This document shows, in pieces, positions 638 to 34,812 of a stretch of 64,000 bases of DNA. Every line of letters starts with the position of its first letter. The first letter of the stretch is position 1. This stretch comes from an uncultured Bacteroidales bacterium (GTDB lineage Bacteria > Bacteroidota > Bacteroidia > Bacteroidales > Muribaculaceae), in NCBI GenBank assembly GCA_949285735.1, contig CASEAQ010000015.1, positions 1-64,000 on the forward strand, given 5' to 3'. The notes under the pieces were generated by a model. It saw only the letters and a program-made list of their open reading frames with translations. It ran no database searches and was not told the DNA's origin. The position numbers were made by a program, and so were the translations under genes.

Positions 638-1826
638 TATAGTCAACAAGCGAGTCGTTGGCTATGGCAAACGAGCGGAATTGCATCACCGAGTCGTTGT
701 AATCGACAGTGTGGTACATCGGCGTGTCTCCTATCACTTTGAAGCCCGGAGTTTCGGGGCGGGCAGTGTAGGACTTCGGCGACATGAACGAGACGATATA
801 GGCAGGGTGGTCGCCACGAGTGCCGATGTTGCGCATGTATCCATGTTCATGCCCCTGAAGCACGAGGTGCACGCCATATTTTTCCATCAGCGGTACAAAC
901 GTGTTGCGTATCTGCAAGTTGTTGCGGCTCTTGCGCACCGAGTAGGCAGGGTGGTGGTACATCACCACCTTCCATTTGTCGCCAGCCCCCCTCAGGCAGT
1001 CGCGCAGCCAGCGGTAACGTGCCGTGAGTGTCACACAGTCGTTGATGCCTTGCGTGTCGAGCACCATGATGCGCAGTTGTGGCAGGTCGATATAGTAGCT
1101 TATTCCCATTGCCGTTTTTGCCCCGTTTTCGGGATAGACAAAAGTGTGCCTCCATCGAGGGTCGATGCTTGGATATATTGATTTCAGGTAGTCGTGGTTG
1201 CCTGTCGCCGTGAGCAGCGGAATGGTGGCAAGTATAGAGTCGGCAGATTCATACAGGTAGTTCCAATATGGGTCGATGGGGCGTTCGATGAGGTCGCCGG
1301 CACAAGCCCAGAAGTCGGCATCGGGAAACTTGTTGTAGAGCCGTGCAAACCATTCCCCCGAGGGTCCGCCGAAGTTGTCTTGCACATCGCCGAAGAATAT
1401 GAAACTGCGGCTGTCGGTATCGCTTGTCGGCATAGTGAACGAGTATTCGCGTGATTGCCTCCCGGCAGTGGCTACGCGGTAGCGGTAGGTCGAGTCGGGT
1501 TGCAGGCTGTCGAGGCGCACGTGGTAGAATGCGTCGCGTCCTCCGCGGCTTTCGATCACGGTGCCGGTGGCAGGCAACACAATCGAGTCGCCTGCACCCA
1601 CGAGCGTGAGCGACGACTGCTGCAAGGTGTCGCCACAACGCCATGAAACGGTGCGTTGCGATATGAATTGCTCGCCCGGGGTGAGCGTGATGCGGTCGGG
1701 GGCAGCGGCTGCCGCGTAAGGCTCTTCGGGAACGTTGCTGAACCAAGCGTTCCAACGGCTTCTTATGAATAGGGTGATGGCAGCTAACACAGCCAAAATG
1801 CATATTATTTTAATATATTTTTTCAT
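618..1826 (-). CDS. Secreted or membrane-anchored calcineurin-like metallophosphoesterase with purple-acid-phosphatase-like N domain
   Basis: The start is taken at the ATG of MKKYIKIICILAVL; an in-frame upstream start at 1874 would put an unlikely 16 residues before a clear signal or anchor helix. About 402 aa. After the hydrophobic N-terminus comes a fibronectin-like domain as in purple acid phosphatases (DSLQPDSTYRYRV). The metallophosphoesterase core follows, with all dimetal motifs in order: FFGDVQDN, AGDLIE, TGNHDY, MYHHPAYS and LQGHEHGYM. The likely role is hydrolysis of phosphate esters in the periplasm or at the cell surface; the substrate is unknown. It is divergent from the fucosidase gene (105-bp gap) and its 3' end overlaps the glycerate kinase gene tail to tail. 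Confidence 0.88.
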   Translation of the reverse strand: MKKYIKIICILAVLAAITLFIRSRWNAWFSNVPEEPYAAAAAPDRITLTPGEQFISQRTVSWRCGDTLQQSSLTLVGAGDSIVLPATGTVIESRGGRDAFYHVRLDSLQPDSTYRYRVATAGRQSREYSFTMPTSDTDSRSFIFFGDVQDNFGGPSGEWFARLYNKFPDADFWACAGDLIERPIDPYWNYLYESADSILATIPLLTATGNHDYLKSIYPSIDPRWRHTFVYPENGAKTAMGISYYIDLPQLRIMVLDTQGINDCVTLTARYRWLRDCLRGAGDKWKVVMYHHPAYSVRKSRNNLQIRNTFVPLMEKYGVHLVLQGHEHGYMRNIGTRGDHPAYIVSFMSPKSYTARPETPGFKVIGDTPMYHTVDYNDSVMQFRSFAIANDSLVDYITVSRR

Positions 1827-1895
1827 ATCCGAGAGTTTGAATGCAAAATTGGCGAAAAAATAGCTGCAAAGCAAAATTTATTGGTGCAATATGAG

Positions 1896-1903
1896 TATTT
1901 TTG
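1896..1903 (+). promoter_or_regulatory. -7 box (TATTTTTG) of the fucosidase gene
   Basis: Exact match to the Bacteroidetes -7 consensus TAnnTTTG, about 28 bp before the GH29 start codon. No clear -33 TTTG is visible at the usual spacing. Confidence 0.5.
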
Positions 1904-1931
1904 TCTATCATAAAACCATTAACATAAACTT

Positions 1932-3269
1932 ATGAAGAATAACAGTCTTTTTAGAATTGCTGTGGCGACGGCGTTGCTGTGTGGCACAGGTGGAACAACA
2001 GTTGCTTTGGCTCAGGAGGCGGCAGGAACAGCGGCTTATGTGCCGACCGAAGAGAATTTGAAGGCGAGAGAGGAGTTCCAAGACAACAAATTCGGCATCT
2101 TCTTGCACTGGGGACTTTACAGCATGCTTGCCCAGGGCGAGTGGTACATGACCAACCGCGACATCGATTGGCGTGAGTATGAAAAGTTGGCATCGGGTTT
2201 CTATCCATCGCGGTTCAATGCTGCCGAGTGGGTTTCGGCAATCAAGGCGTCGGGGGCGAAATATATATGCTTTACCTCTCGCCACCACGAGGGCTTCTCG
2301 ATGTTTGACACCAAATATTCCGATTTCGACATAGTCGATGCCACACCATTCGGGCGCGATGTTATAAAGGAACTTGCCGACGAGTGCCACAAACAGGGCA
2401 TAAAGTTGCATTTCTATTATTCGCATCTCGACTGGCGGCGCGACGATTACCCGCAGGGGCGCACTGGCACTGGCACAGGGAGACCGGAAGGACATGGCGA
2501 CTGGAAGAGCTACTTCGAGTTTATGAACAACCAGCTCACCGAGTTGCTCACCAACTATGGCGAGGTGGGTGCGATATGGTTTGATGGCTTTTGGGATCAG
2601 CCAGCCGACTTCAACTGGCAGACCGATGAGCAGTATGCCCTTATCCACCGTCTGCAACCGGCATGCCTCATAGGTAACAACCACCACGTGACACCCAATC
2701 CGGGCGAGGACATACAAATCTTCGAGCGTGACCAGCCGGGCGAAAACACAGCCGGGCTGTCGGGCCAGGCAATAAGCGCATTGCCGCTCGAAACTTGTCA
2801 GACGATGAATGGAATGTGGGGTTACAAGATACAAGACCAAAATTATAAGTCAACCAAGGAATTGATACACTACCTTGTGGAGACTGCCGGAAAGAACGCC
2901 AACCTGTTGCTCAACATTGGCCCGCAACCTAATGGAGAATTGCCAGCCGTAGCCGTGCAACGCCTCAAGGAGATGGGCGAGTGGATGAAAGTGTATGGAG
3001 AAACTATCTATGGAACTCGCGGCGGCGACATTGCTCCGCACCCGTGGGGCGTGTCAACTCGCAAGGGCAACCGCTTGTTTGTGCACATTCTCGACCTTGC
3101 CGACGATGGGTTATACTTGCCACTGAAGACGAAAGTGACTGCAGCCAAGGTGTTTGTTGATAGCACTCCAGTCGAGTATAAGCAAGAGAAAAATGGCGGC
3201 GTATTGTTGAAGTTGCCGAAAGTGCCCGATGAAGTTGACTATGTAATCGAACTCACGTTGAAACAATAA
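1932..3269 (+). CDS. GH29 alpha-L-fucosidase, secreted
   Basis: 445 aa. The N-terminal 28 residues form a signal peptide ending around ALA-QEA. The GH29 (beta/alpha)8 barrel follows: FGIFLHWGLYS near residue 54, SRHHEGF near 116 and SHLDW near 164. The segment AIWFDGFWDQ carries the expected nucleophile Asp at about residue 218. LLLNIGPQPNG and a C-terminal beta-sandwich close the protein. The family releases terminal alpha-linked L-fucose from host glycans with retention. The enzyme would act in the periplasm or at the surface. It is followed at once by cutC and then by the fucose catabolic genes, so fucose it releases can be used directly by the neighbouring pathway. The acid/base residue was not identified by eye. 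Confidence 0.95.
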   Translation: MKNNSLFRIAVATALLCGTGGTTVALAQEAAGTAAYVPTEENLKAREEFQDNKFGIFLHWGLYSMLAQGEWYMTNRDIDWREYEKLASGFYPSRFNAAEWVSAIKASGAKYICFTSRHHEGFSMFDTKYSDFDIVDATPFGRDVIKELADECHKQGIKLHFYYSHLDWRRDDYPQGRTGTGTGRPEGHGDWKSYFEFMNNQLTELLTNYGEVGAIWFDGFWDQPADFNWQTDEQYALIHRLQPACLIGNNHHVTPNPGEDIQIFERDQPGENTAGLSGQAISALPLETCQTMNGMWGYKIQDQNYKSTKELIHYLVETAGKNANLLLNIGPQPNGELPAVAVQRLKEMGEWMKVYGETIYGTRGGDIAPHPWGVSTRKGNRLFVHILDLADDGLYLPLKTKVTAAKVFVDSTPVEYKQEKNGGVLLKLPKVPDEVDYVIELTLKQ

Positions 3270-3279
3270 TTGCGTGGAT

Positions 3280-4011
3280 ATGGGCAGATTGATAGAAATC
3301 TGTGCCAATTCGGTGGAGAGTGCCGTCAAGGCTCAGGAAGGAGGCGCATACCGTGTGGAACTGTGCGCCGGCATTCCCGAGGGCGGCACCACTCCGTCGT
3401 ATGGCGAAATAGTGACAGCCCGCAAGTTGCTGACGACGACTCGGCTGCACGTCATAATCCGCCCCCGCGGAGGCGATTTCCTGTATTCGCCAATGGAGGA
3501 GGAGATAATGACGCACGATATTGACGTTGCCCGGCAGGCAGGTGCCGACGGCGTGGTGATAGGTTGCCTGAAAGCCGACGGAAGCGTTGACGTGGAAATG
3601 ACGGCACGGCTGATGTCGCACGCCGCGGGCATGAGCGTGACGTTCCACCGTGCATTCGACGTGTGCCGCGACCCGTTTGAGGCACTGGAGCAGATTGCCG
3701 CTCTTGGTGTAAACCGCATTCTCACGTCGGGGCAAGAGGCTACAGCCGAGCTGGGCATTCCGCTGCTGCGTCAACTCGTAGAGAGGGCTGCCGGACGCGT
3801 AATCATCATGCCAGGCTGTGGCGTCAATGCGTCTAACATTGCCAAGATTGAAGCCGAAACCGGGGCGCGCGAGTTCCATCTCTCGGCACGCAGCCGTGTG
3901 GCAAGCGACATGGCATACCGCAACGGGCGTGTGTCGATGGGTGGCACGGTGTGTATCGACGAGTATAGCAGGGAAGTGACCGACCCAGAGAAAGTGAGGG
4001 GAGTGTTGTGA
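3280..4011 (+). CDS. cutC: CutC family protein (copper homeostasis family, function unsettled)
   Basis: About 243 aa from the ATG at 3280; a GTG two codons upstream (3274) is an alternative start. The start MGRLIEICANSVESAVKAQE and the following GAYRVELC are diagnostic for the CutC TIM-barrel family (PF03932). Further family blocks are IRPRGGDFLYS, GADGVVIG, TFHRAFDV and RILTSGQ. The gap to the fucosidase gene is only about 10 bp, so the two are probably co-transcribed. CutC was named for copper tolerance in E. coli, but that role is disputed, and Bacteroidetes copies often sit beside glycoside hydrolases. A link to sugar metabolism is an inference from context only. Confidence 0.9.
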   Translation: MGRLIEICANSVESAVKAQEGGAYRVELCAGIPEGGTTPSYGEIVTARKLLTTTRLHVIIRPRGGDFLYSPMEEEIMTHDIDVARQAGADGVVIGCLKADGSVDVEMTARLMSHAAGMSVTFHRAFDVCRDPFEALEQIAALGVNRILTSGQEATAELGIPLLRQLVERAAGRVIIMPGCGVNASNIAKIEAETGAREFHLSARSRVASDMAYRNGRVSMGGTVCIDEYSREVTDPEKVRGVL

Positions 4012-4074
4012 CGATAGGGTGCGCGCCTGCCATGAGTTAAGGAAGGGAAAGATGTTGTAAAACATGTTTTTTTT

Positions 4075-4135
4075 CTTGTGCGGCAGTGGCAAAAACTGTT
4101 ACTTTGTATGAGTTTATTAGGCACACTATGTGTGC
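4075..4135 (+). promoter_or_regulatory. Candidate fuc operon promoter with overlapping GCACAC/GTGTGC operator
   Basis: A -33-like CTTG (4075-4078), 20 bp, and a near-consensus -7 box TTACTTTG (4099-4106) predict transcription from about 4113. A perfect inverted repeat GCACAC-TAT-GTGTGC (4121-4135) lies just downstream of that start, where a repressor would block transcription. Three more GCACAC copies occur at 4235, 4258 and 4290. The rest of the 338-bp gap (4012-4349) is a roughly 237-nt untranslated leader with an additional TTAGG/CCTAA hairpin near 4206-4222. In Bacteroides thetaiotaomicron the fuc operon is controlled by the GntR-type repressor FucR; no fucR gene is in this window. Confidence 0.45.
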
Positions 4136-4349
4136 TGGCTACAGTTTGAAATATCATGTCTCGCCCGTCTATGCCATGTTAAGAACGACTATACTTGGAG
4201 GCATGTTAGGGAACAATCCTAAACGACACGAGGCGCACACATATATGTTGTCGAAATGCACACATGCAGAGCACATGCGTGGACTTGATGCACACAGAAT
4301 TAGATTAAACCGCTAACATAACAAACATTATCTTTAAAACAGAGAGAAT

Positions 4350-6122
4350 ATGAACAAGTATCCTAAAATTGGCATTCGCCCCGTCATTGATGGCCGTCAG
4401 GGCGGTGTTCGAGAAAGTCTTGAAGACAAGACTATGAACTTGGCAAAAGCCGTGGCTGAGTTGATTTCAAGCAACGTTAGAAATAGCGACGGCAGCCCGG
4501 TGGAATGCGTTATTGCCGATGGCACCATAGGCCGTGTGGCAGAAACAGCCGCTTGTGCCGAGAAGTTTGAGCGCGAGGGTGTAGGTGCCACTATCACCGT
4601 TACATCGTGCTGGTGCTACGGCTCTGAAACTATGGATATGAACCCATATTGGCCAAAGGCTGTGTGGGGTTTCAATGGTACCGAACGCCCGGGAGCCGTT
4701 TACCTGGCAGCAGTGTTGGCAGGCCATGCACAAAAGGGGCTTCCAGCATTTGGCATCTACGGACGCGACGTGCAAGACTTGGACGACAATACCATCCCTG
4801 CCGATGTGGCTGAAAAGATATTGCGCTGGGCTCGCGCAGCAATGGCTGTTGCCCAGATGCGCGGACAGAGCTACTTGTCGATAGGTAGCCAGTGCATGGG
4901 TATCGCAGGCAGTATCGTCAACCACGATTTCTTCCAAGAATACTTGGGAATGCGCAACGAAAGTGTTGACGAGACCGAAATTCTGCGCCGCATGGACGAG
5001 GGTATCTATGACCCCGAAGAGTTCAAGAAAGCAATGGCATGGGTTGAAAAATACTGCAAGCCAAACGAGGGTTGGGACAAGAATCGCCCCGAACGCCAAA
5101 AGACTCGCGAGCAGAAAGATGCCGACTGGGAATTTGTGGTTAAGATGACCCTTATCGTTCGTGACTTGATGCGCGGCAACCCGAGGTTGCGCGAAATGGG
5201 CTTCAAGGAAGAGGCTTTGGGCCACAATGCCATCGTCGGTGGTTTCCAAGGACAACGCCAGTGGACCGACTGGAAGCCAAACGGCGACTTCACCGAGGCA
5301 TTGATGTGCAGCACATTCGACTGGAATGGCATACGCAAGGCATTTGTGCTTGCAACTGAAAACGACTCTTGCAACGCTGTGGCAATGTTGTTTGGCAACT
5401 TGCTGACAGGCTGCGGACAAATGTTCAGCGACGTGCGTACATACTGGAGCCCCGAGGCAGTGAAGCGTGTTACTGGCAAGGAATTGACAGGGCTTGCTGC
5501 CAACGGTATGATTCACCTCATCAACTCGGGTGCTACCACGCTCGATGCTACCGGTGAGAGCATCAACGCCAACGGCGAACATTGCATGAAGCCGTGCTGG
5601 GAAATGACCGAAAAGGATGCCGAGGCTTGCCTGAAGGCTACCAACTGGTTGCCTGCCGACCGCGACTACTTCCGCGGTGGTGGTTTCTCGAGCAACTTCT
5701 TGTCTCGTGGCGGTATGCCTGTAACCATGTCGCGTATCAACCTCATAAAGGGCCTTGGACCAGTGTTGCAAATCGCCGAGGGCTGGACTGCCGACATTGA
5801 CCCGGAAATCCACGAAATACTCAACAAGCGTACCGACCCGACTTGGCCAACCACATGGTTTGTTCCTCGCTTGTGTGACAAGCCTGCATTCAAGGATGTT
5901 TACTCGGTGATGAACAACTGGGGAGCCAACCACGGTGCCATCAGCTATGGTCATATCGGTCAAGACCTCATAACGCTTGCATCGATGTTGCGCATACCGG
6001 TGTGCATGCACAATGTTGACGAGGAGAAGATTTTCCGTCCGGCAGCATGGAACGCATTCGGCATGGACAAGGAAGGTGCCGACTACAGGGCTTGCATGAA
6101 CTACGGTCCTATCTATAAGTAA
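4350..6122 (+). CDS. fucI: L-fucose isomerase
   Basis: 590 aa, the usual length for FucI, which interconverts L-fucose and L-fuculose with Mn2+ in the cytoplasm. Recognisable family segments are [20 protein letters not shown] at the N-terminus, [54 protein letters not shown] and the C-terminal [12 protein letters not shown]. It is the first gene of the fucI-fucA-kinase-fucP set and is preceded by a long leader. Bacteroides fuc operons usually begin with fucR, which is absent here. A 99-bp gap with a strong hairpin separates it from fucA. Confidence 0.97.
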
Positions 6123-6152
6123 ACAATAACTTTTTTACATAAACCAGACAAA

Positions 6153-6200
6153 GGGAAGAGGGTGAGGCTCTCGCAACAGGGACGCGCACCCTCCTTTCCC
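6153..6200 (+). other. Intercistronic hairpin between fucI and fucA
   Basis: GGGAAGAGGGTG pairs with CACCCTCCTTTCCC (two-base bulge) around a loop of about 22 nt. It is followed by GTTTCTT rather than a U-run, so it is more likely an RNA-stabilising or processing element, or a weak attenuator, than a full terminator. Confidence 0.5.
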
Positions 6201-6221
6201 GTTTCTTAAACTCAGAAAACT

Positions 6222-6860
6222 ATGATTACCAATCTTGAAATAGATGAATTTGTAAGGCAAGCCCATCGTGTGGGTGATGCAGGTCTCACCATTTGCAGCA
6301 GTGGCAACCTTTCGTGGCGTATTGGCGACGAAGTGCTTATCTCGGGTACCGGCTCGTGGGTGCCAAACATTCAAAAGGAAAAAGTGGCTATTTGCAACCT
6401 CGCAACGGGCGAGAGCGTGAATGGCGTGAAGCCGTCGATGGAACACGTGTTCCACTTGGGCGTGTTGCGCGAGCGCCCCGACATGAATGTCGTGCTACAC
6501 TTCCAGTCGCCCTATGCTACAGCCATTGCTTGCATGAAAAAGCAGCCCGAGAATTTCAACGTTACTGCCGAAATCCCGTGCCACGTAGGTCGTGAGATAC
6601 CTATCATTCCTTATTATCGTCCGGGTTCGCCAGAGTTGGCAAAAGGCGTAATCGAGGCATTGAAGGAACATAATTCGGCACTCATGCTCAAGCACGGGCA
6701 AGTGGTGTGCGGAAAAGACTTCGACGAGGCATTCGAGCGCGCCATGTTCTTTGAGATGGCTTGCCGCATCATCTTGCAATCGGGCTTCGAATACAACGTG
6801 TTGTCGCAAGAGGAAATCGAAGACTTGGATACTTACATTCTGGGTAAAGTTACAAAATAG
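6222..6860 (+). CDS. fucA: L-fuculose-1-phosphate aldolase, class II (Bacteroidetes type)
   Basis: 212 aa. Class II aldolase/adducin fold: AGLTICSSGNLSWR near residue 20, SGTGSWVP, KPSMEHVFHLGVLRERPD, VVLHFQSPYATA, LKHGQVVCG. The family cleaves L-fuculose-1-phosphate to dihydroxyacetone phosphate and L-lactaldehyde with Zn2+. In E. coli FucA the metal is held by a Glu and three His, two of them in an HxH pair. Here that pair reads HFQ, so the second His is Gln, while the Glu (PSME), the first His and the later His (KHG) are present. It is followed after 3 bp by the kinase gene, indicating tight co-transcription. Function is well supported by position between the isomerase and kinase genes. 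Confidence 0.93.
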   Translation: MITNLEIDEFVRQAHRVGDAGLTICSSGNLSWRIGDEVLISGTGSWVPNIQKEKVAICNLATGESVNGVKPSMEHVFHLGVLRERPDMNVVLHFQSPYATAIACMKKQPENFNVTAEIPCHVGREIPIIPYYRPGSPELAKGVIEALKEHNSALMLKHGQVVCGKDFDEAFERAMFFEMACRIILQSGFEYNVLSQEEIEDLDTYILGKVTK

Positions 6861-6863
6861 CCC

Positions 6864-8213
6864 ATGAAAGAAGTTTATATAGCTGTTGACTATGGCGGGG
6901 GGAGCGGACGTGTGATTGCCGGCTCGTTCCGCCAAGGTCAATTAGAATTGGAGACCATAAGCCGTTTTGGCAACAGGCAGGTGAGAATGGGCGGACACAC
7001 CTATTGGGACTTCCTGTCGTTGTTCCAAGACATGAAAGAAGGATTGCGCATGGCAGTCCGCAAGGGGTATCGCATCAAGAGCATCGGTATCGACACTTGG
7101 GGCGTTGACTTCGGGCTGATTGACAAGCAAGGCAACCTTCTTGGTAACCCTATATGCTACCGCGACCAGTTTACCGTAGGGCTTCCCGAGGAACTGCATG
7201 GCGACAATGTGGCAGCACACTATGCCGTTGCCGGCATACAAGTGATGCCCATTAATACCATTTACCAGTTGTATGGGTTGAAGAAAGAGGGCGATGTGAG
7301 GCTCGATGTTGCCGACAAGTTGCTGTTCACCCCCGACTTGTTCAGTTTCTTCCTCACGGGCGTCGCCAACAATGAGTATAGCATCGCTTCGACATCGGAG
7401 TTGCTTGATGCCCGCAGCCGCGATTGGAATCGCGAGTTGATAGCACGGCTCGGATTGCCGCAGCACCTCTTTGGCGAAATTGTGATGCCAGGCACTCGCC
7501 GCGGTACATTGCGCCCCGAGGTGGCAGCTGAGATAGGCGTTGACTATCCAGTGGAAGTGATAGCCGTGGGGTCGCACGACACCGCAAGCGCGATACGGGC
7601 ATTGCCGCCTGTCGAGCGTGCCGGCACTCGCCGGGCATTCTTGAGTTCGGGCACATGGTCGTTGCTCGGTATAGAGCTCGACGAGCCTGTGTTGACCGAG
7701 GAGGCGCGGCTGGCAGGCTTCACCAACGAAGGCGGCGTGGGCGGAAAAATTTGTTTCATGCAGAATATCACCGGGCTGTGGATATTGCAGCGGTTGCGTG
7801 CCCAATGGGAGGAAGAAGGGAAGGAAATTGACTACGGCGTGTTGATTGCCGATGCCGAAAAAGCCAGCATAGCGTCGATAATCGATGTCGATGCTCCCGA
7901 GTTCCAAAATCCCGACGGCATGGAAGGCACCATAGCCGAGCATTGCCGTGCCACAGGGCAACAAGTGCCTGCGACCCAGGGTGAATATATGTTGTGTATA
8001 ATGCAGTCGCTCGCCATGCGCTACAAGCGCGGTATCGACGAGCTTAACCGTCTCACCGGGCAGTCGATTGAGGAATTGTGCATCATCGGCGGTGGTAACC
8101 AGAACCGTTTGCTCAACCGCCTCACTCAAGAAGCTCTGGGCATACCTGTCGTGAGCGGTCCAGTCGAGGCTACTGCCATTGGCAACATATTGGTACAAGC
8201 CGAGGTGTTGTAA
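6864..8213 (+). CDS. fucK: L-fuculokinase (rhamnulokinase-like FGGY kinase)
   Basis: 449 aa. FGGY carbohydrate kinase: phosphate-1 motif VDYGGGSGRV at the N-terminus, SIGIDTWGVDFGL near residue 74, SSGTWSLLGIE in the C-terminal domain and the adenosine motif GGGNQNRLLNRL. Sequence features (YWDF, CYRDQ, INTIYQLY) match rhamnulokinases as much as fuculokinases, a common situation in Bacteroidetes. Its place directly after fucA and before fucP makes L-fuculose the probable substrate, giving L-fuculose-1-phosphate for FucA. Rhamnulose as an additional substrate cannot be excluded. Confidence 0.9.
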   Translation: MKEVYIAVDYGGGSGRVIAGSFRQGQLELETISRFGNRQVRMGGHTYWDFLSLFQDMKEGLRMAVRKGYRIKSIGIDTWGVDFGLIDKQGNLLGNPICYRDQFTVGLPEELHGDNVAAHYAVAGIQVMPINTIYQLYGLKKEGDVRLDVADKLLFTPDLFSFFLTGVANNEYSIASTSELLDARSRDWNRELIARLGLPQHLFGEIVMPGTRRGTLRPEVAAEIGVDYPVEVIAVGSHDTASAIRALPPVERAGTRRAFLSSGTWSLLGIELDEPVLTEEARLAGFTNEGGVGGKICFMQNITGLWILQRLRAQWEEEGKEIDYGVLIADAEKASIASIIDVDAPEFQNPDGMEGTIAEHCRATGQQVPATQGEYMLCIMQSLAMRYKRGIDELNRLTGQSIEELCIIGGGNQNRLLNRLTQEALGIPVVSGPVEATAIGNILVQAEVL

Positions 8214-27279: not shown

Positions 27280-30200
27280 CTAATTGATTACGGCAATTTT
27301 GTGGGTGGTTGTGCCAGTGGCAGATGTCACTTTGGCGATGTAGATGCCGTTGCCGAGATGCTCGGTCGATGCTTCCTGCACGTTGTGGTAGGTGGCTACG
27401 AGGCTGCCCTGCAAGTCGAATATCTTGATGTGGCTCGGCGTGCCTGTGCGAATGAGTCGTGCCTGTGCATCGTATGTGAACCTGTCGTTTTGCGTTGCCA
27501 TTTCCACTCCCGATGTGCCATCGACGGTGAATATGAGTTCGGTTTCCTCGGAATATTGGCGTGTGCCGTCCATGTGCGTGTAGGCGGCTACCACCTTTGC
27601 CAAGTGGTCGCCTTCCTCCAATCCCGATATGCTGTAGCTGCGAGAAGCCGTGCTGCCCAACAATTCCTCGTCGATGTATATTTCGTAGGTTGCAAGTTCT
27701 TGTGCCAACGTGGTTTCATAGCCAATGAAAATGTCGTCGATGGCAAACATGAAACGTTGGTCTGACACGCATCGCAGCACCACGCGTCGAGCCTCCTTGG
27801 GAATATTGTATGAGAATTGTGTCCATTGTCCGCCCACTTCTTGTGGCTCGTCGGTGAGCCACTCAATGCCGTCGGTGCTGACGATGTCGGCTGTGCTGTA
27901 TCCCACCATGAATTGTTCGTTATCGGCTACCAACCCCGAGTAGCAAGTAAGGGCATAGAAGCTGAATATGAAATCGTCGGCGAAGTTGAGCGTCGGCGAG
28001 AACAAGTAGTCGTCGTTATGCTTGCCCTGCGCATAAAATTGGTCGATGGCTATGTCGATAAGCACCTTGTTGCCGCTGTGCGGGCGCACGTATTTGAACA
28101 AGTCGGGTTGCGTTTTCGACGGGTTGAACACCATGAACGCCATTGGTTCGCCCATGTTCTCGAATGGCTGTGTCACCTCAGCCAATTCATAGGTCTTTGC
28201 GCCGTCGGCATCGATATATTCCCAGCCGAGAGTGCCAGCACAGTTGACGGCAAAGTCGGGCATCGTCTCGAAGTCGTCGGCGATATGTTGAGGTTGGTTC
28301 CATTGCAGCGTCACCATGTCGCCCTCTTGCGTGGCATTGAGGTTGACGACGCGTTCGGGAATGAAGGTCATGGCATACGACGAGGTGTAATTGTTATCAG
28401 AGCTGAGATCTATTGCCTGTGAGATGCTTTCAAACCCTTTTTTCTCGATGCTCAAGTTGTATGAGCCTTTGCGGATATTGTTGAATGTGGCAACACCATC
28501 GGTCACGGTAGCCGTGAGGGTTGGGTTGTCCTGCCCGTTGCTTTCGAGTGTGACACGCGCCCCGTCGGTCAAGCCCAAGCCCATGTCGGTGTAAACCTGC
28601 ATAGTGACGTTGGTGCGCATATTGTTTTCGACCATTGGCGAGAATTTGATGCCCGATGTCTGCCCGTCGGCAAAATTGGCACGTATTGCATAGTAATAGT
28701 CGTCCTGTGCCAATTGCTTGAATGTGCGGTCGAAGTAGTTGGTTTCTGCCAGTTGCTCGTCCAAGATAGTCCATGAGTCGGCTGCGACAATTTCGCCCGA
28801 GGCTATTGCTGCGTCGTGGTCCTCGCTCGAAACACGCCACAGGGTATATGTCAGCTCTGCGTCGTTATCGGCGTTGTTGTCGGCAAGTGGCAACATGCGC
28901 ATCTTCGACTTGAATGGACTGCCTTCGTCTTCATCGGGAATCCCCATCATGTAGCCGAATCCACGCAACAGCAAGTTGCCGTTGAAGGTGATATTGGCAA
29001 ATTCGTCTTGGAGGTAGTCGTTGGCAGTGTAGTATTGGTAGCTATACGGGTATGGCTCGGTGCCAGAATCGTAAGGCACATACAAATTGGGACCTATGAT
29101 TACAGCCAAGCAGCCGTTTCCAGCCTCGATGGGAGTGTCGAACACGTGTTCGGTCCATTGCATATTGCCGTCGAAGTCGTAGTTCTTGGTGGCGATGCCA
29201 TCGGCTTCATACAGGATTTCATCGGTGGGGTTGCCATAGGTGTCGAGCGCATACACTTTTACATCGACTGTTTCGCGTTTGTAGCTTGTGGTTGTCACCC
29301 ATTTCATGCCATTCAATATCACCGGTTGGGCAAATCGCACCCCTATCGCGGCATTTTCACCTTGCACGCTTGCCTGCCCGTAGTATGCCCCGTTGTCGTA
29401 GAACATCTCTGTCTCCCACATCGGCATCATCCACGACACGAAAGTGCCGTATTGCAACAGGCTGGCTTGAATGTTGCCTGGGGCTATCACATTGGTTTCG
29501 AGCGTGATTGTACCCAAGTCTAATGGTGAGTCGGTCAACGTGAACTCGGCGCGGTGGGTCTTCTTCAAGGCATATTTTATTTCAATGCTGTAAGGATTGT
29601 CGCTGATTTTCACATCGTTGATGATGAATGATCCGTCGTTGCCGGTTGTGGCTGAGTGGGTTTCATCGCCCGAAATTTCTACCGTCGCTTCGCTGATGGG
29701 ATTCCCGAACGAATCGACAACGGTGCCGCTCACGTCGGTGCGAGGCTCTTGCACCAGTGCCAGCGTAACGTTCTTCTCGGTGTCGATTCCGCGTTCAACC
29801 GTCACGGTTTCTTCCACCGTAACGTAGTCGGCTTTTTCAACCTTAAATGAATATTCGCCAGCCGACATTTCGGGGAATGTGTAGCTGCCGTTGCTGTCGG
29901 TTGTCTTTGAGATGGCTTTGTAGGTAGCTCCCGAGATGGTCACTGTGGCATCAGCCACGGGCGAGCCCTCCTCGTCGGTTATGATGCCAGTGATTGACGA
30001 CAATGTTGCATCGGTAAGCTCGAAGCTGTATATGTCGATGCGGCTGCCCATCATCCACGGGTTGTATGCCTGTATGCCGAAGTAGTATTCACCCGGCTCT
30101 ATCCCCGAGGGGAGCTTGAACACATAGTATTGTTCATTCCGATTGTTGAAGCCGTCGGGATAGTCCATGATTTCGATGCTTTGACCCTGTGCCGACGCTT

Positions 30201-30534
30201 CGGCACCCATTGTGAATTTGAACCACTCGGTCGATGCCGTTCTCATCATCACCCTGATGCACAAGTTGTCGGGGTTCTCGATGTTGATTTTGGGGCTGAA
30301 CATCCATGCGTCGGTGTCGCCGCCGAAGTTGAAGCCAGTGTTGAGTGAGCAGTAGCTGTAGTTCCATTCCCATGAGATGTCGCAATTGGTGGCTTTCGTC
30401 CATGTGTCGAATTCCTCTTGGGTGTTGAATCCGCAGTAGTAGTTGTCGGTTGGCGTTGCGTCTTGGGCAATGGCTTGTTGCAAGCCGAGGCACAAGAATG
30501 CCGTTAATGGTAAAAAAACTCGTTTAAAGTTCAT
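27280..30534 (-). CDS. Large secreted protein with carboxypeptidase-regulatory-like domains and T9SS C-terminal sorting domain
   Basis: 1084 aa. A signal peptide (FLPLTAFLCLGLQQAIAQ) precedes a choice-of-anchor-J-like beta-sandwich (about 30-180). Two CarboxypepD_reg-like repeats follow (SSITGIITDEEGSPVADATV and DVSGTVVDSFGNPISEATVE), and a third, weaker one occurs further on (VTMQVYTDMGLGLTDGARVT). A second anchor-J-like region is near 790-960 (VGYSTADIVSTDGIEWLTDE, then FAIDDIFIGYE). The last 75 residues are a type A T9SS sorting domain (IKIFDLQGSLVATYHNV, then GNGIYIAKVTS). Such proteins cross the outer membrane by T9SS and are anchored at the surface. It lies 41 bp downstream of the Omp28-like gene, in one operon with it. 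Confidence 0.85.
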   Translation of the reverse strand: MNFKRVFLPLTAFLCLGLQQAIAQDATPTDNYYCGFNTQEEFDTWTKATNCDISWEWNYSYCSLNTGFNFGGDTDAWMFSPKINIENPDNLCIRVMMRTASTEWFKFTMGAEASAQGQSIEIMDYPDGFNNRNEQYYVFKLPSGIEPGEYYFGIQAYNPWMMGSRIDIYSFELTDATLSSITGIITDEEGSPVADATVTISGATYKAISKTTDSNGSYTFPEMSAGEYSFKVEKADYVTVEETVTVERGIDTEKNVTLALVQEPRTDVSGTVVDSFGNPISEATVEISGDETHSATTGNDGSFIINDVKISDNPYSIEIKYALKKTHRAEFTLTDSPLDLGTITLETNVIAPGNIQASLLQYGTFVSWMMPMWETEMFYDNGAYYGQASVQGENAAIGVRFAQPVILNGMKWVTTTSYKRETVDVKVYALDTYGNPTDEILYEADGIATKNYDFDGNMQWTEHVFDTPIEAGNGCLAVIIGPNLYVPYDSGTEPYPYSYQYYTANDYLQDEFANITFNGNLLLRGFGYMMGIPDEDEGSPFKSKMRMLPLADNNADNDAELTYTLWRVSSEDHDAAIASGEIVAADSWTILDEQLAETNYFDRTFKQLAQDDYYYAIRANFADGQTSGIKFSPMVENNMRTNVTMQVYTDMGLGLTDGARVTLESNGQDNPTLTATVTDGVATFNNIRKGSYNLSIEKKGFESISQAIDLSSDNNYTSSYAMTFIPERVVNLNATQEGDMVTLQWNQPQHIADDFETMPDFAVNCAGTLGWEYIDADGAKTYELAEVTQPFENMGEPMAFMVFNPSKTQPDLFKYVRPHSGNKVLIDIAIDQFYAQGKHNDDYLFSPTLNFADDFIFSFYALTCYSGLVADNEQFMVGYSTADIVSTDGIEWLTDEPQEVGGQWTQFSYNIPKEARRVVLRCVSDQRFMFAIDDIFIGYETTLAQELATYEIYIDEELLGSTASRSYSISGLEEGDHLAKVVAAYTHMDGTRQYSEETELIFTVDGTSGVEMATQNDRFTYDAQARLIRTGTPSHIKIFDLQGSLVATYHNVQEASTEHLGNGIYIAKVTSATGTTTHKIAVIN

Positions 30535-30575
30535 AATGAATAGGTTTTAGTTAAGATATTATGGAGCTGTGGCTC

Positions 30576-32474
30576 TTAGCGGATGAATTTCGTGGTTTGT
30601 GTGCCGCCACCGTCGATTGTTGCGCGCACGATATAAACTCCGTGGTCGAGGTGGTTGATGTCGATGTCGCTGCAACGGTCGGCATGGGCAACGCGTGAGC
30701 CGTTGGCCGAAAATATGTCGATGGTGCATTCTGCGGCAGTGGTGATGCGGTTCGAAGTGATTGAGAAGTATTGTTGTGAATTGTAGTCCGTCGAGATGCC
30801 GTCGATTGCCGAGGTGCCGCCGACTGGCGTTTGAGCAGCGTTGTAAACGATGTTGTTGTTGGGCGTTGCAGGGTCGGAATTTGCCAAAAATGCCACGATG
30901 CGCAAGTTGTTGCGGTTCCATTCGGTTGGCAGGGTGTAGGAATAGGTTGCTGATGAAAAGTTACCATCGGAATCGAATTCTACGGCATCGCCCCAAGTGG
31001 CAGTGAGTATGTGTCGCAACACGTTGTCGTGACGGTAGCTTTCAAGTATTTCCTCGCGGTTGTTGAGTTGCACAGCCATCAGCCCGTCTTCGACAAGGAA
31101 GATGAACAGTCGCACGTTGTCGCCGTCAATCTTCGATGCGTTGCCTTGGGTTATGGCAGCGTTTACAGTCACTTCGAGCAATCGGTTGGCAGTATTATAG
31201 GCAGGATCGATGTCGAGAGCGACATATGCAGGTGCATCGTTCTCGCCGGCAAATATGCTCGGAGTGGTTTCGCGGTCGGGTTCAGTTACAGGGCTGCTCG
31301 ATGAGCCGCCATACTTCTGCATATTAGTACGGTTGACCATCATTGCAGGATTGTATGTACCGATGTTGCTGTCAAACAGTTTCAGGTATTCGCTACTTTG
31401 TGGTATCGTGAATTTGTCGTTGGCAAATCCGCAGTGGTGCGTCACCCATATCACGTTGCTGTATTTCTGCACACTGCGGGCAATTGTGGCGTGGCCCGTC
31501 GGGCAATTTGCGCAATACTGGCTCGAAAACTGTTCGAGTAATATATTGCGTGGAACGTAGTTGCTGTTGAGTATCAGGTTGCCCGTTTCGGCAACGTGGT
31601 CGCTGTGGGTGTTGGGATTGCCGTTTACCATGTCGATGCTCACCGAGAGTGGAGCTATGCTTTTGGCTGAGACGGCAAAGTCGTCGATAGTAACGAGTTG
31701 GTAACCGTTCGACGGAATGTCGATGCCATCGATTGTGGCTGTATGTTTTTCGTCCTTGAACATGCATGTAATCGTGATGTTGTTGATGGAATTTGCACCC
31801 ATGTTGCGTACTTCCACGTCGATGGGAAAACTGCTGTCGATTGGCTGGCATTTGCCTACGTTCAGAGATTTGACTGAAGCTGCATCTTGAGGTAAATTGT
31901 TGCCGGTAACCACGGCTTGTAGGTTCAGGTTGCCCCCTGTTTCATGATACCAGTTCCATACGGTGTTGCCATTGTCGGTCTGTGAAAATGCAAGCCAATT
32001 CGCCAGATTGTTTTGAGTTGCTTCGCCGTCAAACGATATTATCATACCCTTGCTCTTGATGCTCACGCCAATGAAAAGCGGCTTGTCGCCAGCAATTTCA
32101 TAACTGTTGTCGAGGACAATTTCGTTCCATCCCTGCGACAAGTTGGTAACCTCTTGTAAGTAGAACGGCTCGGCAGTCAAGTCGTGGGATAGGAAAATGA
32201 GATTTTCCTGCTCTGAGGGTTCCATAGCCAATGGAACTCTAATGTGGGTAATCTTGTTGCCAGATAGCTTTTGCATTAGAGTTGAAGGAAATTCTACGGC
32301 TTGTCGTATATAAATCGGATAGCTTGGTTCGCCCATCTCGACATCGGTTTCCAAATCACCGTTGCCATATCCGATAATCAACGGTTGTGTCGTCGAGTCG
32401 CTATTGGCGGCAGAGGCATGCAAAGATAGAAATAGTACGCTGCAAAGTATGCAGCTTTTGTAATAGTTCGCCAT
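30576..32474 (-). CDS. Omp28-like secreted protein with T9SS C-terminal domain
   Basis: 632 aa. The signal peptide ends near HASA-ANS. The N-terminal half is beta-rich, resembling surface adhesin/anchor domains. The middle has the Omp28 region with a thioredoxin-like Cys pair: NILLEQFSSQYCANCPTGHA, then HHCGFANDKF. The C-terminus (about 555-632) is a T9SS sorting domain (IDIFSANGSRVAHAD, then GVYIVRATIDGGGTQTTKFI). Omp28 of Porphyromonas is an outer-membrane surface adhesin-like protein; the ligand here is unknown. It is the first gene of a two-gene operon with its start 32 bp from the left arm of the inverted-repeat element. Confidence 0.85.
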   Translation of the reverse strand: MANYYKSCILCSVLFLSLHASAANSDSTTQPLIIGYGNGDLETDVEMGEPSYPIYIRQAVEFPSTLMQKLSGNKITHIRVPLAMEPSEQENLIFLSHDLTAEPFYLQEVTNLSQGWNEIVLDNSYEIAGDKPLFIGVSIKSKGMIISFDGEATQNNLANWLAFSQTDNGNTVWNWYHETGGNLNLQAVVTGNNLPQDAASVKSLNVGKCQPIDSSFPIDVEVRNMGANSINNITITCMFKDEKHTATIDGIDIPSNGYQLVTIDDFAVSAKSIAPLSVSIDMVNGNPNTHSDHVAETGNLILNSNYVPRNILLEQFSSQYCANCPTGHATIARSVQKYSNVIWVTHHCGFANDKFTIPQSSEYLKLFDSNIGTYNPAMMVNRTNMQKYGGSSSSPVTEPDRETTPSIFAGENDAPAYVALDIDPAYNTANRLLEVTVNAAITQGNASKIDGDNVRLFIFLVEDGLMAVQLNNREEILESYRHDNVLRHILTATWGDAVEFDSDGNFSSATYSYTLPTEWNRNNLRIVAFLANSDPATPNNNIVYNAAQTPVGGTSAIDGISTDYNSQQYFSITSNRITTAAECTIDIFSANGSRVAHADRCSDIDINHLDHGVYIVRATIDGGGTQTTKFIR

Positions 32475-32505: not shown

Positions 32506-32715
32506 ATCCGTCTCTTCGCAGGAGACGGATATGAGAGTTAATAATCAATTGTTCAATTTGTTATAAATCTGTTTAGACTAAAAATTACATAACAACAACT
32601 GCAATCGAATATGTATATACTTGTGGTTCTATTTTTTTGAGGTTGGTAATCAATAAATAAAAATAAATTCTGTATATTTGTGATGATATCATCCGTCTCC
32701 TGCGAAGAGACGGAT
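32506..32715. promoter_or_regulatory. Putative invertible promoter segment flanked by 25-bp inverted repeats
   Basis: Two 25-bp sites, 32506-32530 and 32691-32715, are exact reverse complements. Each site has 9-bp palindromic arms ATCCGTCTC and GAGACGGAT; the 7-bp spacer is TTCGCAG on the left and CTGCGAA on the right, so the sites are inverted relative to each other. They enclose 160 AT-rich bp. The only exact -7 box inside is TATATTTG (32673-32680), on the plus strand and so pointing away from the T9SS operon. If the segment were inverted, the box would lie at 32541-32548 on the minus strand and give a leader of about 60 nt before the start at 32474. The 9-7-9 layout is like a tyrosine-recombinase crossover site. 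Neither arm is followed by a U-run, so they do not look like terminators. Confidence 0.65.
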
Positions 32716-32789: not shown

Positions 32790-33162
32790 TTTCATTTAAA
32801 ACGAAATGACGGAATATGGGAACACTGGGGGCGGCGGAGCCGTCCAACTATGTTGTAACCGACAGTGACGCAGTCCAACGCAGTGGGCAAGGAACTGTCG
32901 GACGCAACAATCTCCACCCAATTTAGGGCCTCGAAGAGGTCCAACGGAACTCCATTGCCATTCTTGCTTGAAAGAACAATGTACATATCCTCCATGCTTG
33001 GTTAAACACTACCTTAGTGGCACGTTGGACCTCTTCGAGGCCCTGCTGCATGGGAGGAATTCGTTCCGACGGTTCCTTGCCCTAAAGGGCTGCGTCGCCG
33101 TCGGTTAGCGCAAAGTTGGACGGCTTCGCCGCCCCAAGTATTCCTTCTCCGCTTTAAATGAA
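32790..33162. repeat. Foldback element, copy A
   Basis: The core (32827-33135) begins GGGGCGGC and ends GCCGCCCC, and its two halves are inverted repeats of each other. Each half has three hairpins: H1 (GGGCGGCGGAGCCGTCC), H2 (CCGACAG...CTGTCGG on the left, CCGACGG...CCGTCGG on the right, read inward) and H3 (GGGCCTCGAAGAGGTCC). A unique centre of about 75 bp separates the halves. Outer ends TTCATTTAAA (32791) and TTTAAATGAA (33153) extend the inverted repeat. It shares sequence with copies B and C but not with the flanking genes. It fills most of the 901-bp gap between the Omp28-like and sulfatase genes. Confidence 0.85.
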
Positions 33163-33375: not shown

Positions 33376-34812
33376 ATGAATAACAAATTTGCTGCTGGCA
33401 TTTTGTGCCTTGGCATGGGTGGACTTGTCACCGTCCAAGCCCAACAGCAAAAGCCTAATGTAGTGTTTATCCTTGCCGACGATTTGGGATATGGTGACCT
33501 TGGTTGTTATGGGCAAGAGAAGTTTGAAACCCCCAATATCGACCGTTTGGCGCAAGATGGAATGCGCTTCACGCAGTGCTATTCGGGTACTACCGTGAGT
33601 GCACCGTCGCGTTCGTGCCTGTTGACTGGAATGCATAGTGGACACACACCCGTGCGAGGCAATATCGAACTCGACCCCGAAGGGCAATTCCCATTGCCAG
33701 CCAGTACCCATACCATATTCCATACATTCAAGGAGGCTGGCTACAAGACTTCGGCTTTCGGAAAGTGGGGATTGGGCTTTGTGGGAACCTCCGGCGACCC
33801 TCGGTCGCAAGGGTGTGACAGGTTTTATGGCTTCAATTGCCAGTTGCTTGCCCACAGTTACTATCCCGACCACTTGTGGGATAACGATCAACGAGTGACG
33901 CTCGACGACAATGTGCTCGAAGTGGAGTATGGCAAAGGCACTTATGCACCCGACTTGATACACTCGAAGGCACTCGAATATCTCGACAGTATGACTGCCG
34001 ACGAGCCGTTTTTCATGTGGTATCCCACGATATTGCCACATGCCGAGCTGATAGTGCCAGAGGATAGCATAATCAAGCATTACCGTGGCAAGTTCCCCGA
34101 AGTGGCTTATAAGGGTACCGAGCCTGGCAATCCGGCATTCCGCCAGGGGGGATATTGCACCCAGCTACAGCCCCATGCTACGTTTGCGGCGATGGTGGCA
34201 CGGCTTGATATGTATGTGGGGCAAATAGTGGCAAAGTTGAAAGAAAAAGGCTTGTATGACAACACTATTATCATATTTTCGAGCGACAATGGTCCGCACA
34301 TGGAAGGGGGCGCCGACCCCGACTTTTTCAACAGCAACGGCATATACCGTGGCTACAAGCGCGATTTGTATGAGGGTGGCATAAGGGTACCTATGATAGT
34401 GTCTTGGCACATACAGGCAGGAACGGAAACCGACTTCATGTGTGCGTTTTGGGATATGTTGCCCACGTTCCGCCAAATCACTAATCCCAAGGCAAAACCT
34501 GTGGAGGGGGAAGACGGCGTGAGCCTGTTGCCGCTGCTCACGGGCAAGAAAGGACAGCAGGAACATGAATACCTGTATTTCGAGTTCCAAGAGCTCAACG
34601 GGCGGCAAGCCGTGCGCAAAGGCAACTGGAAGCTGCTGCACATGAACGTGCGTGGCGAAAGGCCTTATTATGAGCTGTATAATATCGCTGCCGACCCGTC
34701 GGAACGGCATAACTTGTTGGACGAGTACCCTGAGATTACCGAAGAGCTGAAGGCGATTATGCAGTCGGGGCATGTTGACAATCCCGATTTCCCTTTATTT
34801 GAAAAAAGATAA
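33376..34812 (+). CDS. Secreted serine-type sulfatase (arylsulfatase family)
   Basis: 478 aa with a signal peptide (cleavage near VQAQ). The sulfatase fold starts NVVFILADDLGYGDLGCYG (metal Asp pair). The active-site motif is SAPSRSCLLTG with Ser75 in the formylglycine position, so this is a serine-type enzyme needing an anaerobic radical-SAM maturase, which is not in the window. FGKWGLGFVG near residue 128, MWYPTILPHAE, and FSSDNGPHMEGGADPDFF (metal ligands) complete the site. It removes sulfate esters, probably from mucin or glycosaminoglycan sugars. It has its own promoter and is followed after 21 bp by the beta-galactosidase gene, so desulfation and degalactosylation are encoded together. 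Confidence 0.93.
   Translation: MNNKFAAGILCLGMGGLVTVQAQQQKPNVVFILADDLGYGDLGCYGQEKFETPNIDRLAQDGMRFTQCYSGTTVSAPSRSCLLTGMHSGHTPVRGNIELDPEGQFPLPASTHTIFHTFKEAGYKTSAFGKWGLGFVGTSGDPRSQGCDRFYGFNCQLLAHSYYPDHLWDNDQRVTLDDNVLEVEYGKGTYAPDLIHSKALEYLDSMTADEPFFMWYPTILPHAELIVPEDSIIKHYRGKFPEVAYKGTEPGNPAFRQGGYCTQLQPHATFAAMVARLDMYVGQIVAKLKEKGLYDNTIIIFSSDNGPHMEGGADPDFFNSNGIYRGYKRDLYEGGIRVPMIVSWHIQAGTETDFMCAFWDMLPTFRQITNPKAKPVEGEDGVSLLPLLTGKKGQQEHEYLYFEFQELNGRQAVRKGNWKLLHMNVRGERPYYELYNIAADPSERHNLLDEYPEITEELKAIMQSGHVDNPDFPLFEKR

Follow-up and report, generated by a model that had tools for sequence, protein, structure and literature searches.

The window analyzed here is a 64,000-nt stretch of DNA from an uncultured Bacteroidales bacterium of the Muribaculaceae. 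It carries a 160-nt segment between inverted repeats next to two genes for T9SS surface proteins, and the question raised by this locus is whether the segment is a promoter that can be turned around and, if so, by which enzyme. We conclude that it is very probably a phase-variable (invertible) promoter of the two genes. This reading, which was also that of the initial annotation, is supported by a family of related sites, the spacing of a promoter box, the adjacency of recombinase genes to sites of this class, and a segment that lies inverted between two sister species at an orthologous locus.

Inverted repeats and a promoter box upstream of a T9SS operon

The locus comprises the following elements.

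32506..32530, no strand assigned: predicted left recombination site, ATCCGTCTC-TTCGCAG-GAGACGGAT, operon-proximal; sites of the same class occur elsewhere in the genome
32531..32690, no strand assigned: putative invertible segment, 160 nt, drawn OFF; inversion predicted from relatives
32673..32680, + strand: -7 promoter box TATATTTG, 10 nt from the right site and aimed away from the operon
32691..32715, no strand assigned: predicted right recombination site, ATCCGTCTC-CTGCGAA-GAGACGGAT, from the sequence
30576..32474, - strand: target gene 1, Omp28-like protein with T9SS sorting domain, 632 aa, from profile matches; an orthologue with its own switch is present in genome G006
27280..30534, - strand: target gene 2, CarboxypepD_reg / choice-of-anchor J protein with T9SS sorting domain, 1084 aa, from profile matches

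The repeats are 25 nt long, 100% complementary, and enclose 160 nt, exactly as initially annotated. Each site is a near-palindrome with 9-nt arms around a 7-nt asymmetric spacer (TTCGCAG / CTGCGAA), and the chance expectation for a perfect 25-nt inverted pair at most 600 nt apart in 64 kb of the window's base composition is 3.5e-8. Within the segment, TAnnTTTG is matched exactly just once, by TATATTTG at 32673 on the + strand, which confirms the single outward box and fits the OFF orientation assigned to the sequenced copy, with the box aimed away from the operon at 27280-32474. On the operon strand of the segment as drawn, there are two TAnnTTTG boxes with one mismatch. Flipping the segment places the exact box 10 nt from the inner edge of the site at 32506-32530, and the recomputed position reproduces the expected leader, about 60 nt long, ahead of the ATG at 32474. 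Because the left site lies only 31 nt from this ATG, there is little room for a second promoter. The -33 element of this promoter type is TTTG. By eye, no good match to it is visible in the window segment, as had been noted before; since the related switches (the 41-pair set described below) have no -33 consensus either, its absence from the window is no argument against a promoter.

Target gene 2 starts 41 nt after target gene 1. The T9SS sorting domain is recognized in both proteins (28.8 and 24.1 bits, NCBIfam cut-off 23), while the related Pfam sorting-domain model places both slightly below its cut-off (26.8 and 23.3 versus 27). The 632-aa protein is Omp28-like by PF11551 (88 bits versus 34.9) and falls below the NCBIfam lipoprotein cut-off, the 1084-aa protein contains CarboxypepD_reg repeats, and the T9SS sortase is present in the source genome (1011 bits). 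The sortase, the promoter box, and the recombinase relatives in named genomes point to a member of the Bacteroidales.

In the proposed mechanism, a tyrosine recombinase acting in trans would pair the two 9-7-9 sites and exchange strands inside the 7-nt spacer, which must match, and the 160 nt would thereby be inverted. In the sequenced orientation, the box would fire away from the operon (OFF). After inversion, transcription would begin near the inner edge of the left site (ON), and the mRNA for the two T9SS-exported proteins would carry a leader of about 60 nt with the 9-bp site hairpin near its 5' end. RNA folding of the predicted leader yields this hairpin at -15.9 kcal/mol (z -3.0). For the window's own copy we infer inversion and transcription, as well as the place of crossover, from sequence.

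Shared design and inversion in relatives

The stricter form of the site, RTCTCTTNNNARGAGAY, was found in 107 of the 247 family genomes, compared with 20 of 247 for the reversed control pattern. A TAnnTTTG box lies 7-10 nt from a site in 37 of 41 pairs, a set in which L110 occurs twice over one right site. When overlaps are merged into 40 family pairs, an outward box stands beside the site in 36 and an inward box at the same place in one; the set of loci from named genomes gives 42 of 49 outward and none inward. These box counts leave out L051, L058, and L078, which are the same places as L025, L083, and L097, and the low-complexity locus L055, and the 40-pair and orientation counts also leave out the single-site loci L014, L015, L028, and L029. 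Judged by the box spacing, transcription would start at or near the edge of the site.

Comparing relatives, we found one switch, upstream of a gene for a DUF6377 protein, in opposite orientations in two sister species.

L085 (G003:C12), 4180-4380: DUF6377 switch, one orientation
L099 (G008:C49), 3972-4172: DUF6377 switch, the opposite orientation

The two loci are orthologous, with flanks that are 92% and 98% identical over about 4 kb each and run in one sense, whereas the segment between them is opposite. From site to site (201 nt), 189 of 201 positions are identical when one segment is inverted and 81 of 201 when the two are aligned collinearly; the 60-nt flanks beside the sites are identical at 54 and 58 of 60 positions. 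By this comparison of orthologous loci other than the window's own, sites of this class do recombine. Two further contigs, G082:C4 and C15 (L101 and L102), are identical over their first 119 nt, up to the final base of the 17-nt core of the site, and diverge from there. This is the pattern expected from both junctions of a single segment in a population of mixed orientation, although two separate loci sharing a segment end may also produce it.

A second core type, ATCCGTTTC-N7-GAAACGGAT, was observed at G008:C35:14937-14961 and G005:C4:61550-61574. In G008, the copy starts 40 nt beyond a recombinase match.

Related sites within the source genome

The window switch belongs to a genome-wide set of similar switches. 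At up to three mismatches, the window site occurs at eight places in the 2.6-Mb assembly of the source genome (G000), and the pattern RTCTC-N7-GAGAY has 17 sites compared with two for the reversed pattern, although some of the 17 are no switches. Stretches taken from the genome contain six site pairs, namely that of the window and the following five.

C17: between a tyrosine recombinase gene and a capsule-type locus (NusG-domain gene, Poly_export, Wzz/kinase-like)
C8: before a 124-aa ORF and a type III methyltransferase gene; L030 (G000:C8), 3854-6404
C9: before an HKD+Snf2 helicase gene and a type IIG restriction gene; L016 (G000:C9), 838-7728
C23: before a type IIG-like restriction gene, cut by the contig end; L018 (G000:C23), 1-1087
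C62: beside another tyrosine recombinase gene, with no box adjoining a site

At the restriction/defence loci on C8, C9, and C23, the box points away from these genes; by the mechanical orientation rule given below, the C9 switch counts as ambiguous, with a small ORF on its opposite side.

The two spacers are exactly complementary in all six pairs, in a scan that tolerated one spacer mismatch, while the 21 nt around the spacers differ at 0 to 5 positions, depending on the pair (four in C9, five in C23). Matching spacers between differing arms are what is expected if strand exchange occurs in the spacer. Only this six-pair scan tests spacer agreement, as the other pair scans demanded an exact spacer match. 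Lone or imperfect sites precede T9SS-cargo genes on C7 and C68, a gene with no family match on C28, and an UpxY gene on C1. The two C68 sites have mismatched spacers, which argues against a working switch there, and C68 is left out of the pair count; on C28, one site is good and its partner, if there is one, has decayed. At the contig ends of C7 and C23 (loci L017, 8071-8271, and L029, 6635-6873, taken together), a site with the same spacer is followed by sequence that is similar by eye, and the two ends are perhaps one switch interrupted by an insertion element.

All six spacers of the source genome differ from one another. The spacers could conceivably serve as private addresses of the switches, but a handful of spacers picked from so many possible sequences would be expected to differ in most cases, and spacers are reused within G006 and within G208.

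Association of the site class with tyrosine recombinases

A tyrosine-type enzyme, as initially proposed, fits the gene content of the source genome, which has nine PF00589 and no PF00239 matches in an assembly that is 79.8% complete. None of the nine lies on the window's contig over its whole length, in keeping with the earlier view that the recombinase is missing from the window and acts from elsewhere. The recombinase genes on C17 and C62 stand beside site pairs of their own. Beside the recombinases on C3, C2, C58, and C10, there is no site pair of this class.

Relatives of the C17 recombinase (P0001) at E 1e-60 are present in 145 of the 247 family genomes. The RTCTCTTNNNARGAGAY site and such a relative occur together in 89 genomes, the site alone in 18, the recombinase alone in 56, and neither in 84 (Fisher p 4.7e-12, with kinship ignored). 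As the family loci were mostly picked for the motif, only sets chosen by protein estimate how often the two are linked, and both such sets are the best-scoring parts of longer lists. Among the best 30 recombinase loci in family genomes, 15 have a site pair (14 without L055). Among the best 80 recombinase loci of named genomes, chosen by protein alone from at least 588 relatives, a pair is present beside 47, compared with 0 of 80 in reversed sequence. The pairs at all 47 loci sit 3' of the recombinase gene, and examples include Bacteroides xylanisolvens XB1A, Dysgonomonas mossii DSM 22836, Alistipes sp. An66, and Xylanibacter muris. The residues R, K, R, H, and Y, which we take to be the catalytic residues of these recombinases, are invariant in ten aligned sequences, a set outside which the rbfA-linked enzyme discussed below falls. 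In a comparison with viral contigs, the recombinase had one relative, at 29%.

Candidate enzymes for the window switch

Two arm classes can be compared among the nine genomes of the genus. Sites with RTACATCTC arms, the class of the C17 pair, are found at seven loci, not counting an isolated weak match in G004 or a cross-match on G000 C23.

RTACATCTC sites beside a recombinase match: G000 C17, G005 C18, G006 C8, G007 C139
RTACATCTC sites with no recombinase recognized beside them: G001 C3, G005 C54, G006 C2

Several of their flanks resemble the C17 capsule locus. The sites of the window's operon carry ATCCGTCTC arms, and both arms and spacer differ from those of the C17 pair in the same genome. 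For sites of the window's class, ATCCRTCTC at up to one mismatch, the contig shows no recombinase match closer than 50 kb.

The presence of this second class among the genomes points to a recombinase gene that stands alone beside rbfA.

G000:C2:28645-29598: solitary rbfA-linked tyrosine recombinase, copy of the source genome; relatives L208-L213

This enzyme (315-327 aa, with PF13102 and PF00589 domains and, by eye, the same presumed catalytic residues) forms one clade (100/99) in G000, G001, G002, G003, G006, and G008, and thus is present in six of the nine genus genomes; the G003 and G008 enzymes are nearly identical. In the stretches examined from the six genomes, no site pair lies beside it. 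ATCCRTCTC-class sites at up to one mismatch occur in the same six genomes, with a single such site in G001, and the association of enzyme and arm class is 6/6 versus 0/3 (Fisher p 0.012 for nine related genomes). The one-mismatch cut was chosen after seeing the data, and the survey of the enzyme was made after the arm-class counts. At two mismatches, there is no site of this class in G004 or G007 and one in G005, which has a TTTC/GAAA core. Counting G005, sites are present in seven of nine genomes and the association becomes 6/6 versus 1/3 (p 0.083), and this match weakens the case for the rbfA-linked enzyme as a master invertase. In addition, ATCCG arms are found in a Parabacteroides record next to a recombinase that belongs to another clade.

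We give roughly an even chance to the rbfA-linked recombinase, on these sequence comparisons the likeliest enzyme to flip the window segment. A strong competing candidate, with a probability a little short of one half, is the capsule-locus recombinase of C17, that of C3 or C62, or several of these together. The C17 and C62 enzymes adjoin site pairs of their own, and a locus in G006 speaks for an enzyme of this kind as well. The G006 operon orthologous to that of the window (58% aa identity) has a switch built in the same way but with different arms and a different spacer; its two spacers match exactly, its sites are of the RTACATCTC class, and their spacer is that of the pair beside the G006 C8 capsule-type recombinase. 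In the window, however, the arms are ATCCGTCTC and not the RTACATCTC of the C17 class, and the ATCCR class agrees with the presence or absence of the rbfA-linked enzyme in nine of nine genomes at up to one mismatch and in eight of nine at two.

More tentatively, and at clearly less than an even chance, the vertically inherited rbfA-linked recombinase may be a genome-wide master invertase that jointly phase-varies T9SS cargo, restriction/defence, and capsule genes. Private 7-nt spacers would let one enzyme serve many sites without rearranging the chromosome, and OFF switches beside recombinase genes would fire antisense and could feed back on flipping.

Orientation of the switches and alternative readings

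Orientation was assigned by an ATG-started ORF of at least 100 aa beginning within 300 nt outward. By this rule, 21 of the 40 family switches are OFF and five ON, while in the named set 27 of 49 are OFF and four ON, the rest being ambiguous in both. The lean of the unambiguous switches toward OFF suggests that ON may be rare or that some switches are dead. The window locus itself is OFF in both copies seen, those of the window and of the G006 orthologue, and the Omp28-like protein, compared with the contigs of named genomes to find the operon in the opposite orientation, had no match there. The large-capsule promoter of Tsr19 is likewise OFF in three B. fragilis genome sequences (PMC3090145).

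In most named pairs with a box, the box aims at the 3' end of the adjacent recombinase gene, so that transcription from it would be antisense to that gene.

The present orientation could also mean that the switch chooses between two outputs, with the operon on one side and a sulfatase gene on the other. The box currently aims at the sulfatase side, and the gene at 33376-34812 is a real one by its PF00884 match. The intervening 660 nt, however, include a dispersed inverted-repeat element.

32815..33150, no strand assigned: copy of a dispersed intergenic repeat, beyond the right site, found at about 40 or more places in the genome

This element is about 310 nt long with internal inverted repeats, occurs at no fewer than 40 genome places (from the part of the candidates that was scored), and may not be part of the switch. 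Among four switches checked, copies lie within 1 kb of those on C15 and C8. In G006, where the operon still has its switch, both ORFs listed on the far side of the switch lie on the opposite strand and the flank has no match to that of the window, and we regard a second output as unlikely.

A former switch that is now fixed OFF in the lineage, its recombinase lost or silent, would agree with the OFF state of both the window and G006 copies and with the decayed appearance of C28 and C68 in the same genome. Arguing against this, the window arms and spacers are perfect, the G006 orthologue keeps exactly matching spacers of another sequence, and the candidate enzymes have open frames. In the frame of the C2 enzyme, a longer match to it has one TAA, and another comparison has none. 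We consider a fixed state very improbable. Reading the repeats as a terminator, small mobile element, or attachment sites in place of a promoter switch, as their near-palindromic sites that fold as RNA might suggest, is hardly credible in view of the exact spacer pairing, the box at a fixed place, the recombinase linkage, and the inversion between relatives.

Relation to known systems

Bacteroides is well known for promoter inversion, master invertases of the tyrosine type, and the TAnnTTTG box (PMC4747536), and restriction systems subject to phase variation have been described there too (PMC12632263). The mechanism is known from Bacteroides fragilis, and the window switch adds to a known kind. 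In common with Tsr-type switches of Bacteroidales, the window has a short intergenic segment that precedes a gene and is bounded by inverted repeats, with an outward -7 box near one repeat. Its site class is linked to a tyrosine recombinase, and none stands beside the window copy.

A close parallel in layout is Tsr19 (BF2766) of B. fragilis, which inverts the local promoter IVp-I of an exopolysaccharide operon and the distant IVp-II (PMC4747536). As that source describes it, Tsr19 shares with the present switches a tyrosine recombinase, a local capsule-type and a distant surface-protein promoter, and the TAnnTTTG box, and the C17 locus has this layout. A similarity of local and distant sites of the Tsr19 kind is seen for the orthologous operon of G006, whereas the arms and spacer of the window differ from those of C17. 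The present case also differs in that the likeliest enzyme for the window is solitary beside rbfA, the targets include T9SS cargo, and the site class is found at restriction genes too. Similarly, Tsr0667 of B. fragilis is one tyrosine enzyme for 12 distant regions; three of these are SusC/SusD shufflons (PMC4747536), unlike the present switches.

Mpi of B. fragilis and the Mpi-like system of B. intestinalis resemble the present set in having genome-wide promoter switches on small segments (PMC4747536, PMC8375218), which in B. intestinalis are 183-186 bp long with transcription starting inside the proximal repeat (PMC8375218). They differ in using a serine recombinase and other repeats. An Mpi-type serine invertase was set aside because the source genome, at 79.8% completeness, has no PF00239 match, and an Mpi-like repeat because the motif is quoted as ARACGTTCGTN (PMC8375218) and the window sites instead read ATCCGTCTC-N7-GAGACGGAT. 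The inverton motif groups of gut Bacteroidota are likewise repeat families with an embedded Bacteroidota promoter (PMC11892184); RTCTC-N7-GAGAY may or may not be one of the published motifs.

Among the open-literature matches listed, there was no report of T9SS cargo as phase-variable. For an invertible promoter in Muribaculaceae, the open literature gave nothing, the phase-variation matches being off-topic by title, and for Omp28 with phase variation it gave Helicobacter papers only.

Discussion

Our analysis suggests that T9SS-exported surface proteins join the genes that are apparently phase-varied by promoter inversion in these bacteria. T9SS cargo would thereby fall under a site class common to capsule and restriction genes, and the pairing of this site class with a recombinase can now be tested. 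If the site class is indeed shared in this way, single cells could vary the surface to which phages bind and their phage resistance alike.
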